A stretch of 64,000 bases of DNA from Nitratireductor sp. B36. GTDB lineage: Bacteria; Pseudomonadota; Alphaproteobacteria; Rhizobiales; Rhizobiaceae. Shown here piece by piece: positions 34,297 to 44,906 of this stretch. The DNA lies in contig NZ_JACKZY010000001.1 in assembly GCF_020833685.1 (NCBI RefSeq), positions 434,001-498,000 of the forward strand, read 5' to 3'. Every line of letters begins with the position of its first letter. Positions within the stretch are counted from its first letter, which is position 1. Below the pieces are notes generated by a model that saw only the letters and a list, made by a program, of their open reading frames with translations, made no database searches and had not been told where the DNA came from. The translations under genes and the position numbers were made by a program.

Positions 34297-34529
34297 GCCG
34301 CTGTCTCAGCGTTATCGTTCGGGAGAAAGTCGTCAGCGGAAAGCGCGACGTTCTTCTCCTTCGCTGCCGCCAGAAGAGCCGGAACGTGCTTGAACGGGAT
34401 AATGCCGCCCGTGCCGCCCTTTTCTTTGGCGCGAGACCAATTGGAAACACGGGTGCGATGAACGCCGGCGATTTCAGCGACCGCGCTCGGTCCACCCAGG
34501 TTCTTGATGATTGACTGTGCAGGTTCCAT
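34293..34529 (-). CDS. Cro-like repressor
   Basis: The 78-residue protein has a helix-turn-helix (SAVAEIAGVHRTRVSNWSRA, about residues 13-32) of the Cro/CI class and is read divergent from the S24 repressor. It opens the long minus-strand early operon. The start codon at 34529 lies right at the predicted transcription start, with no Shine-Dalgarno sequence, so the mRNA may be leaderless. Expected role: shut off the repressor during lytic growth. Confidence 0.8.
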   Translation of the reverse strand: MEPAQSIIKNLGGPSAVAEIAGVHRTRVSNWSRAKEKGGTGGIIPFKHVPALLAAAKEKNVALSADDFLPNDNAETAA

Positions 34530-34536
34530 GGCCGTG

Positions 34537-34564
34537 ATTGTAGCGATTATAGAAACATCTGCAA
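34537..34564 (-). promoter_or_regulatory. Early promoter of the Cro-like gene
   Basis: On the minus strand TTGCAG (34564-34559) and TACAAT (34542-34537) are 16 bp apart. An operator (34539-34557) fills the spacer and overlaps the -10 box. Transcription should start near 34530, next to the ATG. Confidence 0.65.
34539..34557 (+). promoter_or_regulatory. Repressor operator 1
   Basis: TGTAGCG-ATTAT-AGAAACA. It shares the TGTAGCG half-site with three other sites and the AGAAACA half with the site at 38762. Centre-to-centre distance to operator 2 is 33 bp, about three helical turns. Confidence 0.7.
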
Positions 34565-34571
34565 GTGATTT

Positions 34572-34590
34572 TGTAGCGAATACAGAAAAT
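34572..34590 (+). promoter_or_regulatory. Repressor operator 2
   Basis: TGTAGCG-AATAC-AGAAAAT, same orientation as operator 1. It lies upstream of the cro promoter and on the repressor side, as expected for control of both genes. Confidence 0.65.
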
Positions 34591-34623
34591 GCACCCATTC
34601 GCCGTTCGCGCTATGGCTTCTGG

Positions 34624-35196
34624 ATGTTGTCCAGATGGCTACAAGAGGCGCTTGAAGCGTCAGGGGTTTCGCAGTCCGAGCTTTCGCGTCGTCTGACCGA
34701 AATGCTTGGCCGGTCTATTGATCGTGCTGCGGTGAATAAGATGGTGAAAGGTGCGCGGGCTATAGCTGGCGACGAGTTGATTGCCATTCAGACGATTACA
34801 GGAATGGAAGCTCCGTCCGAAATCCTTGTCCCGCTGAAGGGGCGCGTCGGAGCCGGTCAGCAGGTCGAAGCAATCGACAACGGTGACGTGGATAGCGTCC
34901 CGGCGCCAAGGGATTCGCGACCGGGAACGGTTGCCGTTGAAGTGTCAGGTACATCGATGTTCCCTGCGCTGGAGGACGGCTACCTGCTCTACTACTCGAA
35001 ACACCTGCCGCCTGCCGAAATGGTGAACCGCCGAGCTGTGGTGCAGTTGGCCGATGGCCGAATATTCGTGAAGATTATCCGACCTGGGTCGGCTCCCGAT
35101 CTTTGGACGCTCCAAAGCGTGAACGCCATGTTCGAAGATATGATCGATCAGGTTGTTGAATGGGCCGCACCTATCGACTGGATACGGCCACGTTAA
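34624..35196 (+). CDS. Prophage repressor, S24 (LexA/CI-type)
   Basis: The likely start at ATG 34624 gives 190 residues. A helix-turn-helix lies at about residues 14-45 (VSQSELSRRLTEMLG). The S24 domain has the active Ser111 (GTSMFP) and Lys150 (RIFVK), and an Ala77-Gly78 cleavage site in GRVGAGQQV. Activated RecA should trigger self-cleavage and prophage induction. It should bind the operators between itself and the Cro-like gene. The start lacks a strong ribosome binding site. Confidence 0.85.
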   Translation: MLSRWLQEALEASGVSQSELSRRLTEMLGRSIDRAAVNKMVKGARAIAGDELIAIQTITGMEAPSEILVPLKGRVGAGQQVEAIDNGDVDSVPAPRDSRPGTVAVEVSGTSMFPALEDGYLLYYSKHLPPAEMVNRRAVVQLADGRIFVKIIRPGSAPDLWTLQSVNAMFEDMIDQVVEWAAPIDWIRPR

Positions 35197-35209: not shown

Positions 35210-35821
35210 ATGCGGGGGATTTTCGTCGGTGCGGTCGTTCTGACTACGACTTGCGCGCCGGGGTTCGCGGCCGGAGAAGGCTGCATCCAGATTTCGAACG
35301 ATCTGGATCGATTGGCTTGCTACGACAAAGCGCTTGGACGGACACCAGAACAGAAGACGGAGCCGACTGCAAAAGGCAATTGGTCGGTCACGTCTGAAAC
35401 GTCCAAACTCACCGACCAAACGAATGTTTTCCTCCGCGTGGAGTCTGACGAAACGGTCAATTGCGGATGGAACAGAGGCGGGAAAGTCACGCTCTACGTG
35501 CGCTGCGTTGAAAACAAGACCGGACTGATTTTCGCCACCGGCTGCCACATGACTTCCAGCCAATACAACGACTATGGTGACGTAACCTATCGCTTGGATG
35601 ACGAGAAGGCGAAGACTGTTGGAATGCAGGAATCAACCAACAATCGATCGCTGGGCCTTTGGAGTGGCGGGCGCTCAATCCCGGTCATCAAGCAGATGTT
35701 CGGCAAGTCACAGATCGTTGTGAGGATGACGCCATACGGCGAAAACCCTTTCACCGCGACCTTCGACATCACTGGCTTGGAAGAATCCATCAATCCATTG
35801 CGGGAAGCCTGCCACTGGTAG
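35210..35821 (+). CDS. Exported VasI/TagO-like protein (moron)
   Basis: The 203-residue protein starts MRGIFVGAVVLTTTCAP, a signal peptide ending at about residue 21. The mature part begins with a CIQISNDLDRLACYD segment and continues with SKLTDQTNVFLRVES and a C-terminal LREACHW. This pattern matches VasI/TagO, best known as a type VI secretion accessory, but relatives occur in prophages. It follows the repressor on the same strand, so the lysogen can express it. Its role here is unknown; there are no secretion genes nearby. Confidence 0.75.
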   Translation: MRGIFVGAVVLTTTCAPGFAAGEGCIQISNDLDRLACYDKALGRTPEQKTEPTAKGNWSVTSETSKLTDQTNVFLRVESDETVNCGWNRGGKVTLYVRCVENKTGLIFATGCHMTSSQYNDYGDVTYRLDDEKAKTVGMQESTNNRSLGLWSGGRSIPVIKQMFGKSQIVVRMTPYGENPFTATFDITGLEESINPLREACHW

Positions 35822-36219: not shown

Positions 36220-36471
36220 ATGACGCCGCCGAGATTTCTGGAATGCCTCGCATATCTGTTTTGGACGTGAGAAACACTCGCTGAGGTGCTGGAATGCGAT
36301 CCAGCGCTTATCAATGCTTGGGCGACCGGTCGGGAGGAAATCCCGGCTGGGCTGGCAACATGGCTCGAGACATTAGCCAAGGCACACGAAGCGGCCGGCA
36401 TACCCACCACCTATCGGAAAGCGCGGTTCAGCGCTGAGCAGTGGAAAGATCGGGAAGAAAACGACCAGTAG
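36220..36471 (+). pseudogene. Small HTH-like protein gene broken by an in-frame TGA
   Basis: An ATG with AGGAGG upstream (36220) opens a frame of 16 codons (MTPPRFLECLAYLFWT), then TGA at 36268-36270. The same frame continues with coherent sequence (ETLAEVLECDPALINAWATG and AGLATWLETLAKAHE) to 36471. A single CGA-to-TGA change would explain it. Read-through gives 82 residues that look like a short helix-turn-helix protein. The downstream part could restart at GTG 36286. Confidence 0.65.
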
Positions 36472-36675: not shown

Positions 36676-37323
36676 TCACAGATCCACTTCCCCCTGCTCT
36701 TGAAGAAGCTCAAACTCCCGCGGGAAGAATGCCTTTTCGGCTGCTGCGACAGTCCGTCCGCAAACAATAGCGGCCGAAACCTCGAATCCCCTCTCTTCAA
36801 GCCGTTGCTTCGCGGCGAGGATGGTACCGCCGGTTGTGATTATGTCGTCGATCAGCACAACGGGGCGCGGTTTGAAATGTTCCGAGACCATCAGATGCGG
36901 ATAGACCGCGTCGACTCCCCTTAAACCGCCTTGCGAAGCAGGCAGGAGATTGCTGACAAACCGTACCGCTGGGACTATCGGGTTATCCAAATCATCAGGT
37001 ACCGCACTCTGCAACATCGTCAGAGATCGGAAGTCATCCTGACTGAATGAGTCCTTTGAGGGCACCGGTACGAGGGCGTTGCCTTGGTAGTGCAATCGAA
37101 CCGTTTCAGCGATGAACCGCCCAAAGATCAGTCGTGTCTTCGCGGCATCCTGCTCATTGATGCGTTGTGGCCCCTTCTTAAACGGAACTGTGAGATAGCC
37201 GTTCATCTTTCCATGCTTCACGGCTCCGCAGAATTTGTAGGATTGCCAAAGCTCATTCGGCCGCGGAGCTAGATTGATGTGCGCCCATTGGCTGTAGTAT
37301 GCGCAAAGGTAGTGGATCTTCAC
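36676..37323 (-). CDS. Phosphoribosyltransferase-like protein (ComF-type), partner of DprA
   Basis: The 215-residue protein starts with GTG 37323, four bases after the DprA stop. It has the PRPP-binding motif VVLIDDIITTGGTI at 155-168, with Asp159-Asp160. Upstream segments (LVPVPSKDSF at 84-93) fit a ComF-like type I phosphoribosyltransferase fold. The N-terminal 40 residues contain Tyr, Trp and Cys residues but no clear zinc finger. Substrate unknown. The pairing with DprA recalls natural-transformation genes, but in a prophage a nucleic-acid-sensing defence role is more likely (inference). Confidence 0.8.
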   Translation of the reverse strand: MKIHYLCAYYSQWAHINLAPRPNELWQSYKFCGAVKHGKMNGYLTVPFKKGPQRINEQDAAKTRLIFGRFIAETVRLHYQGNALVPVPSKDSFSQDDFRSLTMLQSAVPDDLDNPIVPAVRFVSNLLPASQGGLRGVDAVYPHLMVSEHFKPRPVVLIDDIITTGGTILAAKQRLEERGFEVSAAIVCGRTVAAAEKAFFPREFELLQEQGEVDL

Positions 37324-37326
37324 CGC

Positions 37327-38076
37327 TCACCCAATCGCGCTGAGGATATCGCCAACATCCGATAACACTTTGACCTTTGGCTCTTTCAAAAATTTCTGCG
37401 GCCATTGCAAGTCGGGGTTCTCAGCCACAGAACGCATGATGAAAAGCCATCGTCCTAGACGGACGCACTCAGTGGCTTGGTGCAGTGTACCCGACGTGTC
37501 GGATGCTTCGACAATAACACTCGCATCGGTGAGCGCAGCCATAAGTTTATTGCGCTTTGGGAAGTCGGACGGGAATGTTCTTTGGCCCGGTCGGAACTGA
37601 GAGATCAGAAGATGATCGCTATAAATTTCCTCTTGGACCTCGGCGTGCTCAATCGGATAGGCTTTGTTGATAGGTGTCCCAATGACAGCGATTGTATTGC
37701 CGCCAGCGCCCATAGCGCCTAGGTGCGCAGAGATGTCGACACCTTTGGCCAAGCCGCTTGTGACAACGACACCTGCATCGCTGAGTTCGCGCGCCACTCT
37801 TCGTGCGCGCGCTCTGCCAGCTTCTGAAACTGAACGTGCGCCGATTACACAAACGCATTTACCTTTGAGCAGTGTCAGGTCACCGGAGTAGTAGATCTCG
37901 TGATCGGTGTCGGGCTGATCGCGGAACAAGCTTGCCTGGGTCTCTGAAAATGGGCGTTCAGTGTATTTCAGGAGTTCATTCAGCCTTATTGTCGTCACGC
38001 TCGCTGGTGGAGTATACCGTGCGCGCCGGGTCATCGATTTGTCGTTGCTGTCCATGCGTAGCAACACCGGCTCCAT
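37327..38076 (-). CDS. DprA/Smf-like single-stranded DNA-binding protein
   Basis: The start at ATG 38076 has GGGGAGG upstream; sequence further 5' is open but lacks signals. The 249-residue protein has the DprA Rossmann fold: IGARSVSEAG (78-87), SGLAKGVDISAHLGA (107-121), AVIGTPINKAYP, FPKRNKLMA (172-180) and SDTSGTLHQA. Chromosomal DprA loads RecA on incoming DNA. This one lacks the N-terminal SAM and C-terminal winged-helix regions typical of many DprA proteins. It forms an operon with the phosphoribosyltransferase gene. Confidence 0.85.
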   Translation of the reverse strand: MEPVLLRMDSNDKSMTRRARYTPPASVTTIRLNELLKYTERPFSETQASLFRDQPDTDHEIYYSGDLTLLKGKCVCVIGARSVSEAGRARARRVARELSDAGVVVTSGLAKGVDISAHLGAMGAGGNTIAVIGTPINKAYPIEHAEVQEEIYSDHLLISQFRPGQRTFPSDFPKRNKLMAALTDASVIVEASDTSGTLHQATECVRLGRWLFIMRSVAENPDLQWPQKFLKEPKVKVLSDVGDILSAIG

Positions 38077-38281
38077 CTCCACCTCCCCTATCAATTGACG
38101 AATATCGCGATTCGTTCTCAACCGAGAACCCAAGCCAGCCGACACCTGTGGAAAATAAGCCAAATTCCGGCAACTTGAAATGTTCTCTTTGCCACAACTG
38201 TCGCTTCCCTTCTACGTTTGAGAGGTAGGGCTTCGGAGATATAATACTCCCTCTCAGAGCCCTATATCCTCCAATCATAAA

Positions 38282-38309
38282 CTACCGTTATTATGTTCTA
38301 CCGTTATTA
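38282..38309 (+). repeat. Direct repeats upstream of the DprA gene
   Basis: Two exact copies of CTACCGTTATTA (38282-38293 and 38298-38309) with 16-bp period. They lie in the AT-rich upstream region of dprA. They could bind a regulator. Confidence 0.7.
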
Positions 38310-38312
38310 GGG

Positions 38313-38354
38313 GTATCACTGGTGACACCCAGTCTAAGTGTCACTGGTGACACC
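38313..38354 (+). repeat. Tandem palindromic repeats upstream of the DprA gene
   Basis: Two near-identical 17-bp units (GTATCACTGGTGACACC and GTGTCACTGGTGACACC) with 25-bp period. Each holds a palindromic core (TCACTGGTGA, extended to TGTCACTGGTGACA in copy 2). They look like paired operators or iteron-like sites. The second copy overlaps the end of the preceding gene. Confidence 0.7.
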
Positions 38355-38680
38355 TAGGACTGCCATGGAAAGACCAGCCAGTAGTGATTCACGGCCCGGT
38401 TTCGGCGTCCTCGCGTGATCTGATCTCGGTCAATCAGCCCTTCCTCTCGCAGCTTCTTTGCCGACCGCTTCACGGTCTCGATGCTGAGGTTCAAATCCTT
38501 GGCTATCGTCTTCTGCTGATGCTTCGTGTGGTTATCCCGCCGGTTCATGTGCATGGCGATGAAGATCGCGACCCGCTGGCAATCGGCGGTCAGATAATCC
38601 CTCCCAAGAACATGCCTGATCCATTCATCCCGGTTTCGATACCACTGCCCGGCCGGCGATAATTCCGTCTCGTCGTTCAT
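38354..38680 (-). CDS. Winged-helix DNA-binding protein
   Basis: The 108-residue protein (start at ATG 38680) has a winged helix-turn-helix (KTIAKDLNLSIETVKRSAKK, about 56-75), like the DNA-binding part of phage replication initiators and small transcription factors. Its own promoter (TTGACA-17-TACAAA) faces away from the recombination operon. It may act on the repeats that begin at its 3' end. Regulator or initiator cannot be decided. Confidence 0.7.
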   Translation of the reverse strand: MNDETELSPAGQWYRNRDEWIRHVLGRDYLTADCQRVAIFIAMHMNRRDNHTKHQQKTIAKDLNLSIETVKRSAKKLREEGLIDRDQITRGRRNRAVNHYWLVFPWQS

Positions 38681-38728
38681 TGATTTTCCCTGAAATCCTG
38701 CCGCTCGCGCCATCGCGAGACACGCCCA

Positions 38729-39492: not shown

Positions 39493-40512
39493 ATGACCGA
39501 TCTCGACACAGATGCGATGCAGTCCATCGGTGACCTTGCCTCGCGGATCGTTGGAGGCCTTTCCCAGGAGAGACAGTGGGACGGCAAGACGATCACCGAA
39601 CCGGGTGTCTATTCCGGCATCACGCTCGACCAGTATCACCAGAAGCGCGATTTGCTGGATGGACCGTCTATCTCGAAATCTGCCCTGAAATGGCTCTTGC
39701 CGGCTTACGGCGGCTCTCCCAAGGCATTCTGGGGCCGGTGGGCGTGGAACCCCGATCACGTCCGGCAGAATAGCACCAAGGCTATGGATTTCGGCAAGGC
39801 TGCTCATGCACTCCTGCTTGGCGATGAAGTGTTCTCGGCGAAGTTCGCGGTGCGGCCAGAGAAAGCCCCGGACGGCAGGAACTGGAACGCCAACAATTCA
39901 TCGTGCGCCGCATGGATGGACGAACACAAGCACCTGACAGTCATCACATCAGACCAGATCGAACGCATCAAGCGCATCGCCGAAGACGCTCAGAATTATC
40001 CGCTCATTCAGATGGGTGTCCTCAATGGCCGCGTTGAGCGATCGATGTTCTGGAAGGATGAGGAAACCGGAATCTGGCTGCGCAGTCGCCCCGATGCGAT
40101 GCCGAACGCAGATGGTGTGTTCGCGGACCTAAAGACCGCATCGAAGTTTGACGAGGATTTTCTGGAGCGCCAGATCTTCGACGCCGGCTATTTCCTCCAG
40201 GCAGCCATGACGCGGATGATTTGCCGTTCGCTCGGGATCCCCTTTGAGACGTTCGTGCTCGTCTACGTGCTGAACGACGACGTTCCGGACACGGCACATG
40301 TCGAAATCTCAGCCCATGACATCGACCGTGGCGAACGCGTCATCCGGTGGTGCCTGAACACAATCCGTCATTGCCTTGATGCCGACAACTGGCCGGGCGC
40401 GCGTCCGTTCGCGGGCGGTGAGCGGCACATCCAGATGAAGCCGTGGGCCAAATCCCGGCTCGATGACTTCCTCGACCATCAAGACCAGATCGCCCAGCAG
40501 GAGGCCGCATGA
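39493..40512 (+). CDS. RecE/exonuclease VIII-like PD-(D/E)XK nuclease
   Basis: The 339-residue protein has an entry motif MDFGKAAHALLLG (98-110) and the catalytic core RSRPDAMP (Asp201) with FADLKTA (Asp212, Lys214), typical of phage recombination exonucleases related to RecE C-terminal domains. It should chew 5' ends to give 3' single strands for the RecT-like annealing protein downstream. Confidence 0.88.
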   Translation: MTDLDTDAMQSIGDLASRIVGGLSQERQWDGKTITEPGVYSGITLDQYHQKRDLLDGPSISKSALKWLLPAYGGSPKAFWGRWAWNPDHVRQNSTKAMDFGKAAHALLLGDEVFSAKFAVRPEKAPDGRNWNANNSSCAAWMDEHKHLTVITSDQIERIKRIAEDAQNYPLIQMGVLNGRVERSMFWKDEETGIWLRSRPDAMPNADGVFADLKTASKFDEDFLERQIFDAGYFLQAAMTRMICRSLGIPFETFVLVYVLNDDVPDTAHVEISAHDIDRGERVIRWCLNTIRHCLDADNWPGARPFAGGERHIQMKPWAKSRLDDFLDHQDQIAQQEAA

Positions 40513-40715
40513 AGCGCAAATACCAGCGCGGGTCGGTCATCCGCGACCCCGATCTCGTCATTCACATCATCCGCCAAGGGCGCCATCTCTACTGGAGGGA
40601 CAAGGTACAGAACGCCGGATGGATGCAGAACCAGACAATTCGGTCAATCGAAGCGCATGCCCGCGCCGGCTACTTCGCCTTCGCCCATCCGATCAGGGAA
40701 AGGAAATCCGCATGA
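40509..40715 (+). CDS. Small phage protein between exonuclease and RecT genes
   Basis: The 68-residue basic protein starts MKRKYQRGSVIRDPDLVIHI and overlaps the exonuclease stop by ATGA. Aromatic residues (YWRDKVQNAGWMQNQTI) suggest a compact nucleic-acid-binding fold. No family recognised. Confidence 0.55.
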   Translation: MKRKYQRGSVIRDPDLVIHIIRQGRHLYWRDKVQNAGWMQNQTIRSIEAHARAGYFAFAHPIRERKSA

Positions 40716-40942
40716 TCATCGATCCAGACTTCCGCAAGGTCGATGAACCCGTCGTCACGCTCGAATTAAGCATGCAGCAGGCCGAGTGGGTCTCCAACGG
40801 CCTGTCTGACCTTCTTTGTTGGGCGCGGGGCTTCAACGCAGCCCTTTCACAAGACGACCACGACCGCAGCCCAATGGGCGTTTCTCAGGCACGCGAAATG
40901 AACATCGCCCTGAAGCGGGCAATTGAAAGGGCCGAAAAATGA
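40712..40942 (+). CDS. Small phage protein, unknown function
   Basis: The 76-residue protein starts at ATG 40712, overlapping the stop before it. Segment LELSMQQAEWVSNGLSDLL is helical. It overlaps the RecT-like gene by 4 bp. Unknown function. Confidence 0.55.
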   Translation: MIIDPDFRKVDEPVVTLELSMQQAEWVSNGLSDLLCWARGFNAALSQDDHDRSPMGVSQAREMNIALKRAIERAEK

Positions 40943-42057
40943 ACCAACTCGTCTCGCAACAGAACACTTCAATCAACCAGGTCGGCATCGCGTCTGGCAA
41001 TGGCTCTAAGATCGCGCCGCAAACGCTTGGCGAGGTCGTTCGCTTCGCAGAGGTCATGTGCAAAGCAGACATTGCGCTGCCGAAGCACCTGCGCGGCAAC
41101 GCCGGGGCATGTATGGCCGTGGCGCTTCAGGCTCTCGAATGGGAGATGAGCCCGTTTGCGGTCGCGTCGAAGTCCTATTCGGTCAATGGCCAGATTGCAT
41201 ATGAAGCCCAGCTCATCATGGCTGTGATCAACACACGATCCGGCATTGAGGGGCGCTTGAAGTTCCGCTTTGAGGGCGAAGGTCCGGAACGGGTCTGCAT
41301 CGCCCACGGGAAAATAGACGGCGAAGAGCTTGAGGTTCGCTCTCCGAAGTTCAAGGACATCACTCCGAAGAACTCCCCGCTCTGGAAGTCCGATCCCGAT
41401 CAGCAGCACTGCTACTACACCGCTCGGGCGTGGGGCCGGCGACACACGCCAGAGGTGATCCTTGGCGTCTACGACCGGGACGAAGCAGATCAGTTCCGCG
41501 GGCCCGACAACGCCAAGGACGTAACGCCTCCGTCGCTCATGTCACGCTTGCAGGCTCAGAAACCGTCTGGGGACATGCAGGAGGCGCGCGAAGGCTTCGA
41601 CATGTCCAACGTGACGCGCGAGACCGAAGGGCTCTCCAGCGGTCAGGAAATCAATCACGAACACAGTTCACCGGCAGAAAGCCCCACCGGTGACGGCAGT
41701 GGGTCACTCGCCGCCTCTCCATCAGAGCGGTCCACTGCCGACAATTCACCCGCCACGGCGGACCAGGCCGGCTCGCAAGACATGGGAGAGAGCGAAAGCG
41801 AGCCGGCTTCCGTCGATCCGGATTGGCTCAAGACGTTCGCCAAGGCGATCATAGGCGCCATCGGTGAGGATGAGGTTGTCGTCGTCAATCAGTCCAAGGG
41901 GCTCTTTGTCGAAGGCCTGAGCGACGATGTGCGGGCCAAGGCGAAGTCGATAACGAATTACGCGCGCGCCTGCTGCCGCAACGAAGTCGAACTCTCGGAC
42001 TGCATCGACATGATTGCTGGCGTGGCTGGCGTCGACCCGAAGGAGCTGGTGGCATGA
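40939..42057 (+). CDS. RecT family single-strand annealing protein
   Basis: The 372-residue protein has the RecT core (about residues 30-210; FAEVMCKADIALPKHLRGN, ALQALEWEMSPFAVASKSY, DQQHCYYTARAWGRRHTPEV) followed by a Ser/Glu-rich, likely disordered linker and a C-terminal helical part (about 285-372) not usual for RecT. It anneals DNA strands made by the RecE-like nuclease. Confidence 0.88.
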   Translation: MNQLVSQQNTSINQVGIASGNGSKIAPQTLGEVVRFAEVMCKADIALPKHLRGNAGACMAVALQALEWEMSPFAVASKSYSVNGQIAYEAQLIMAVINTRSGIEGRLKFRFEGEGPERVCIAHGKIDGEELEVRSPKFKDITPKNSPLWKSDPDQQHCYYTARAWGRRHTPEVILGVYDRDEADQFRGPDNAKDVTPPSLMSRLQAQKPSGDMQEAREGFDMSNVTRETEGLSSGQEINHEHSSPAESPTGDGSGSLAASPSERSTADNSPATADQAGSQDMGESESEPASVDPDWLKTFAKAIIGAIGEDEVVVVNQSKGLFVEGLSDDVRAKAKSITNYARACCRNEVELSDCIDMIAGVAGVDPKELVA

Positions 42058-44800: not shown

Positions 44801-44829
44801 ATCCAAACAACTGAAATAAAAGAGAGAAA

Positions 44830-44906
<77 letters not shown>

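Follow-up and report, generated by a model that had tools for sequence, protein, structure and literature searches.

Why should a temperate phage carry, side by side, a relative of the competence protein DprA and a phosphoribosyltransferase (PRTase)? Such a gene pair is found in Nitratireductor sp. B36, in a stretch of 64,000 nucleotides that was analyzed as a whole and is called the window hereafter (unlabeled positions refer to it). The original prediction described a trimmed DprA and a ComF-type PRTase forming a self-contained module, possibly devoted to defense. The two genes are the following:

36676 to 37323, minus strand: PRTase gene, putative ShosT-like effector or toxin, 215 amino acids, GTG start

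37327 to 38076, minus strand: DprA-like gene, putative ShosA-like antitoxin or sensor, 249 amino acids, ATG start, Rossmann core

Both are read from the minus strand, the dprA-like gene first and the PRTase gene after a gap of three bases, and the pair covers positions 36676 to 38076, which bears out the predicted two-gene unit. As start of the dprA-like gene, the ATG at 38076, preceded by GGGGAGG, is more likely than the TTG at 38163. The DprA-like protein matches Pfam PF02481 (DNA_processg_A) with 169.6 bits on a frame of 278 amino acids and with 170.1 bits on the frame of 249, and the only other Pfam signal is a sub-threshold match to SLOG. While it shares the Rossmann core with competence DprA, the DprA_N and DprA_WH domains, both found by Pfam in the host's own DprA as a positive control, are absent. 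With 249 amino acids against 377 for the host DprA, the protein was aptly called trimmed. The PRTase matches PF00156 (Pribosyltran) with 29.0 bits (cut-off of 26.3) and its PRPP loop is intact (VVLIDDIITTGGT; LIDDIITTGG/DDIITTGGT). No HAD match was detected by Pfam in its 215 amino acids and no RecQ-like helicase was found in the unit, the protein being a PRTase domain alone.

AlphaFold models of both proteins (pLDDT of 88.7 for the DprA-like protein and 84.4 for the PRTase) were compared with known structures using Foldseek. The DprA-like model retrieved pneumococcal DprA (3uqz), Helicobacter pylori DprA (5mll) and ShosA (8zva) at ranks 1 to 3. For the PRTase model, H. pylori ComF (7p0h) ranked first, and ShosT with PRPP-Mg (8zvc) came at rank 11 (rmsd 3.0 A), with a TMq of 0.50 that is the highest among the 50 matches listed. 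The loop reported for H. pylori ComFC is DDIITTGTTL (PMC9005727), versus DDIITTGGT in the window. The four-cysteine zinc finger described for ComFC in the same paper is missing from the PRTase, which has three cysteines (7, 32, and 188) and no CxxC. The label "ComF-type" is thus adequate for the fold, but does not extend to the zinc finger. As both folds resemble competence proteins, the pair might be regarded as a relic of competence, i.e., as a host DprA and a host ComF that were captured and stand together by chance. Against such an origin argue the lack of CxxC in one protein and the loss, relative to the host DprA, of DprA_N and DprA_WH in the other.

The prediction that the pair resides in a prophage was confirmed by a set of phage genes that includes those for an integrase, RecT, exonuclease VIII, a DnaB-like helicase and an HNH protein, together with the structural and lysis genes for the large terminase, portal, major head, tape measure, and endolysin. 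An att core of 48 identical bases is found at G000:C1:427525-427572 and at positions 44827-44874 of the window, where it lies in the 3' end of tRNA-Pro, next to the integrase gene. This exact recurrence gives the prophage a length of about 51.3 kb. Within it, the pair sits between the gene of an S24 repressor (34504-35196) and the exonuclease-RecT genes (39493-42057), and none of the identified neighboring ORFs is a competence gene, which also speaks against a relic of competence. Beside the S24 repressor gene lies a gene for a protein of the VasI family, a type VI secretion family (35222-35821, plus strand); similar DNA occurs in a gene near CI of the Labrenzia phage vB_LagS-V1. A small gene (36220-36471, plus strand), whose homologue stands beside the pair in another locus (L075), looks broken here by an early in-frame stop. 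The lysogeny slot was also considered as a defense hotspot, an idea that was set aside as the cases are too few to claim it. A scan with the S24 repressor led to one contig (L161), whose 12.5 kb contain no relatives of the pair, and a scan for the same slot with the neighboring lipoprotein-like gene led to zero contigs. In the related phages phiLM21 and vB_LagS-V1, different genes follow CI.

The vicinity of the exonuclease VIII and RecT operon of the phage invites another reading, in which the pair helps recombination: the DprA-like protein would load RecT of the phage, or RecA of the host, onto single-stranded phage DNA, and the PRTase would supply or regulate nucleotides. DprA has such a loading role for RecA in competence, and an interaction with DprA is reported for ComFC of Campylobacter jejuni and Streptococcus pneumoniae (PMC9005727). 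However, the pair is located on the strand opposite to the exonuclease VIII/RecT operon and has its own candidate promoter, and its DprA-like protein is devoid of DprA_N and DprA_WH.

Comparison with known systems points to another family. The PADLOC model of ShosA (PDLC03961) scores 220 bits on the DprA-like protein, a value that discriminates little since the same model also gives 180 bits on the DprA of the host itself. The ShosT model (PDLC03962) gives a weak 25.6 bits on the PRTase, versus 141-180 bits for the proteins of phages Mana, Riah, and P2_4C9, and PADLOC ShosT models score from 18.8 to 57.9 bits on five relatives of its clade. ShosTA systems with a long ShosT (8zva of Escherichia coli APEC O1 and 8zvc, P2_4C9, and the Pf phage PfAC02a) likewise associate a DprA-like protein with a PRTase on phages, and the folds of 8zva/8zvc match those of the window proteins. 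The ShosA proteins of Riah and P2_4C9 resemble the window protein in lacking DprA_N and DprA_WH according to Pfam. ShosT counts 424 amino acids in P2_4C9 and 478 in PfAC02a, whereas the PRTase of the window has 215. The HAD-like N-terminal part, which is strong in the ShosT of PfAC02a and below the Pfam cut-off in that of P2_4C9, is absent here. The N-terminus of the DprA-like protein is shorter by about 40 residues than the PADLOC model and by about 60 than ShosA 8zva. Gene order varies as well, ShosT coming first in PfAC02a and DprA in P2_4C9 and in the window. The pairs of Mana and Riah are organized as in the window, with the DprA gene first and a short single-domain PRTase directly behind it. 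Nevertheless, their DprA has a longer N-terminus and belongs to a separate clade, and their PRTases form a different branch (141-151 bits with PDLC03962, versus 25.6 for the window). PsyrTA and RqlHI also combine a DprA-like antitoxin with a PRTase toxin, but there a RecQ-like helicase forms one protein with the PRTase, and the unit described here has no helicase.

Judged by homology, the pair is of the ShosTA type in the broad sense, i.e., a DprA-like antitoxin with a PRTase: it consists of a ShosA-kind DprA-like protein and a PRTase with a PRPP loop, arranged as a two-gene unit. It has none of the HAD part of long ShosT, the helicase fusion of PsyrTA/RqlHI, the additional domains of competence DprA, or the zinc finger of ComFC. 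It is a compact form, in which an N-terminally shortened DprA-like protein is combined with a PRTase free of the HAD part. The module is therefore not the novelty that it first seemed, as ShosTA is a known kind of toxin-antitoxin defense system. The self-contained module and its defense role are supported by homology to this published DprA and PRTase system, and the idea itself is not new. Our literature search, which covered only a minority of subscription papers and preprints, found no account of the short clade or of an exchange of PRTases.

Is the adjacency of the two genes more than a coincidence? A four-row DprA alignment led to 79 loci in viral contigs, and a PRTase HMM detected a PRTase directly downstream of the DprA relative, on the same strand, in 64 of them. 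This count is partly circular, as the HMM was seeded with 52 regex-picked neighbors from the same viral loci in addition to the window protein; all 52 are within the 64 and the HMM contributed 12 more. The 79 loci are also non-independent, some being near copies (e.g., L093/L094 and L108/L110). In the control loci L049-L068, which are lower-ranked, mostly housekeeping DprA loci with about 1.5 kb of flank per side, the PRTase was found in none of 20. The remaining 15 viral loci are diverse: in three (L074-L076) the PRTase lies on the other strand; two (L148 and L149) carry, upstream of the dprA relative, a large frame that includes a PRTase; in five (L095, L109, L112, L113, and L134) the contig ends at most 350 bases from dprA; and five of the 79 (L094, L097, L115, L129, and L147) have a DprA relative and room, yet no PRTase.

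Cellular genomes gave a similar picture. In the class sample (385 genomes), a PRTase is found beside dprA in nine of the ten best-matching loci, our own genome counted, and is absent from the tenth (L044). In the family sample (394 genomes), the three further PRTase matches all adjoin a DprA relative. The distribution is sporadic: at E <= 1e-10, the PRTase profile matched 4 of the 394 family genomes, and no PRTase was found in the six other genomes listed for the genus. A scan of the genome collection by PRTase patterns gave 4 loci out of 88 stretches, a lower bound since the scan relied on patterns. A DprA match occurs in 35 phage records and 63 plasmid records, and all four phage records examined have a PRTase or ShosT neighbor. 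Searched directly, the PRTase had no tblastn match in annotated phages and plasmids, and its alignment against viral contigs confirmed 0 relatives among 34 pattern stretches; the viral relatives were reached through the DprA alignment. The pair is no chance neighborhood. The prediction had named rarity of adjacency elsewhere as one of two outcomes that would sink it, the other being a constant location with competence genes, and adjacency was instead common in the viral, class, and family loci. Its conservation in 64/79 viral loci is also difficult to reconcile with two competence genes brought together by chance.

The pair travels on different kinds of mobile elements. The closest one, in Mesorhizobium huakuii (69% for DprA and 71% for the PRTase), has a MobA/MobL relaxase gene at a distance of 1.7 kb, and blastn similarity between this locus and the window is confined to positions 36706-37942, within the two genes. 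Another pair, in an alphaproteobacterial MAG (53% for DprA and 45% for the PRTase), is found near recombinase-like and ParB-like genes and an integrase gene; these names were given by eye, except for the integrase, which is a 24% match to that of the window. More distant pairs are those of the phages Burkholderia Mana and Pseudomonas Riah. By the genes identified, the contexts examined (phages, the MobA neighborhood, and the ParB-like element) include no competence locus, in keeping with the earlier remark that no competence genes are near. The occurrence of pairs near MobA relaxase or ParB-like genes further weakens the case for a helper of phage recombination.

The enzyme also occurs by itself. 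Two Stappiaceae, Stappia sediminis and Hongsoonwoonella zoysiae, encode a solitary PRTase (42-44%) in a syntenic chromosomal neighborhood:

L070, 10001 to 10663: solitary PRTase gene

L072, 10001 to 10663: solitary PRTase gene

The flanks of these genes, about 10 kb each, contain no DprA relative, and each genome has one long-frame DprA match (461 and 414 amino acids) and no short DprA. A PRTase deprived of the short DprA is odd for a toxin and counts against the toxin reading of the enzyme. The solitary PRTases are either harmless or restrained some other way.

The DprA phylogeny was built with 90 rows, L150, L143, L112, L149, and L110 having been dropped beforehand. Most short forms, including that of the window, constitute a group of 23 rows (SH-aLRT of 99) and long forms a group of 50 rows (97); the short rows L091-L094 and L145 fall outside the 23-row group. 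The window protein belongs to an inner group of ShosA-like rows from phages (96), and it branches together with L069, L073, L074, L075, and L076 (99). The separation of six housekeeping rows is weak (62). Despite this weak split, grouping with ShosA-like phage proteins is not what captured host genes would predict, and we find an origin of the pair as a competence relic hardly credible.

Trees of the two partners were then compared on 21 matched rows. In the DprA tree, the window, L069, and L073-L076 constitute one clade (100/99.6). In the PRTase tree, L074-L076 are found far off, and the window and L069 group with L071 and L085 (87/84). A PRTase tree constrained to keep the six in one group was worse by 38 log units (p-AU of 3.1e-5), and a DprA tree constrained to unite the window, L069, L071, and L085 was worse by 62 log units (p-AU of 2.3e-4); both p-values are optimistic because the groups were picked after the trees were seen. 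From these sequence comparisons, the PRTase partner appears to have been exchanged between related pairs. The distant PRTase genes are arranged as follows:

L074, 6713 to 7279, minus strand: PRTase gene convergent with dprA, tail to tail

L075, 6698 to 7249, minus strand: PRTase gene convergent with dprA, tail to tail

L076, 6688 to 7308, minus strand: PRTase gene convergent with dprA, tail to tail

These PRTases are unlike that of the window, and their genes run 11-21 bases into the 3' end of the dprA-like gene, a convergent layout that is unusual for a toxin-antitoxin pair. The convergent pair of L076 adjoins relatives of the S24 repressor gene and the Cro-like gene of the window, relatives of two further genes from the lysogeny region of the window are found near that of L075, and L074 has no such neighbor. 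Considering the neighbors of L076 and L075, a similar slot seems to carry unlike PRTases in different phages. An exchange of partners fits poorly with a function in recombination as well, and we regard a helper of phage recombination as quite improbable.

Upstream of the pair, the following features were found:

38282 to 38309, no strand assigned: two 12-bp direct repeats CTACCGTTATTA (copies at 38282 and 38298, spacing of 16)

38290 to 38319, minus strand: candidate promoter GTGATA-18-CATAAT, weak, 9 of 12 consensus positions

38313 to 38357, no strand assigned: two 20-bp repeats with palindromes GTGTCACYRGTGACAC (copies at 38313 and 38338, 25 bp apart)

38354 to 38713, minus strand: winged-helix gene, directly upstream of the promoter region of the pair and on the same strand

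Both repeat families sit between the pair and the winged-helix gene, and the 12-bp repeats overlie the -10 region of the candidate promoter. The two types of tandem repeats announced by the original prediction were recovered as two families of two copies each, but these are not arrays, as Tandem Repeats Finder reported no tandem repeat array in the window. With at most one mismatch allowed, the 4.19-Mb genome has two copies of the palindrome GTGTCACYRGTGACAC, both at the pair, versus 0 for a backward control pattern. With up to three mismatches and in the window alone, its two matches are not rare (15/100 shuffles). The 20-bp palindromic repeats are a possible operator. They are not common to the relatives (344 bases upstream, ten relatives), and no exact copies are present in loci L069-L151. 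The winged-helix gene was considered as a third component and left out of the unit because tblastn (threshold of 0.01) found no relative of it beside related pairs in the same loci. Elsewhere in the window, TGTAGCGRTA-like sites number 10 at no more than one mismatch versus 2.2 expected; four of them lie in the lysogeny region, at its two ends (34539, 38771, 38796, and 38805), and not at the promoter region of the pair. The TGTAGCG-type sites are perhaps operators of the phage repressor.

How might the pair act? Its relatives provide the elements of a model. A DprA and PRTase pair from P2-like phages was reported to block T7 and lambda (Rousset 2022). The PRTase domain of RqlH is described as genotoxic, PRPP-site mutants mostly losing the effect, and RqlI as interacting with RqlH. 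According to a review (PMC12593503, on Pu et al. 2025), ShosT is a PRTase and a pyrophosphatase that disturbs purine pools and leads to DNA duplications and filamentation, ShosA is a DNA-binding protein likely to recruit recombination factors, and the trigger of ShosT/ShosA is Gp0.7 of T7. On the strength of this literature, from which toxicity, neutralization, defense, and purine disturbance are all borrowed, we take the PRTase as the toxin and the DprA-like protein as the antitoxin and sensor. By analogy with these systems, we consider it likely that the pair is a compact ShosTA-type toxin-antitoxin defense cassette, which a temperate phage holds as cargo in its lysogeny region.

In such a cassette, the PRTase would be the effector, binding PRPP and upsetting purine nucleotide pools, which would result in DNA damage and growth arrest. 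The DprA-like protein would restrain the PRTase or counter its damage; direct contact between the two is plausible given the interaction of ComFC with DprA reported elsewhere (PMC9005727). Interference of an incoming phage with DNA or transcription would end the restraint, and the arrest of the infected cell would protect the remaining population of lysogens. The two palindromes probably serve the pair in regulating its own promoter. Since the HAD part is absent, the PRTase reaction would need to suffice by itself; if, as we guess, the pyrophosphatase activity resides in the HAD part, it may not apply here. A small two-gene unit of sporadic distribution, carried by mobile elements and endowed with a possible operator, could also be a pure addiction module that keeps the prophage or element in its host and has no role against other phages. 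However, the phage resistance conferred by the pair of P2-like phages (Rousset 2022) points, by analogy, toward defense, and mere addiction seems unlikely.

For the defense cassette that we favor, the short clade has practical and conceptual consequences. PADLOC ShosT models score its members weakly, and pairs of this kind could be overlooked. The clade also comprises small putative toxins free of the HAD part, which would reveal whether the PRTase alone poisons. Moreover, the disagreement between the two trees raises the questions of whether one DprA neutralizes several unlike PRTases, and whether the partner or the DprA decides which phages act as triggers. The DprA-like protein could be a general antitoxin and sensor hub that accepts many PRTases, the Stappiaceae enzymes being effectors without a keeper or tamed ones, a proposal to which we give an even chance. 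If it is true, phages would swap the enzyme beside a DprA that is kept, even when the enzyme is inverted to a convergent gene, and the Stappiaceae PRTases would have lost their keeper or been tamed for a function of the cell. The chemistry of the attack would then vary, while the part in control would remain constant.
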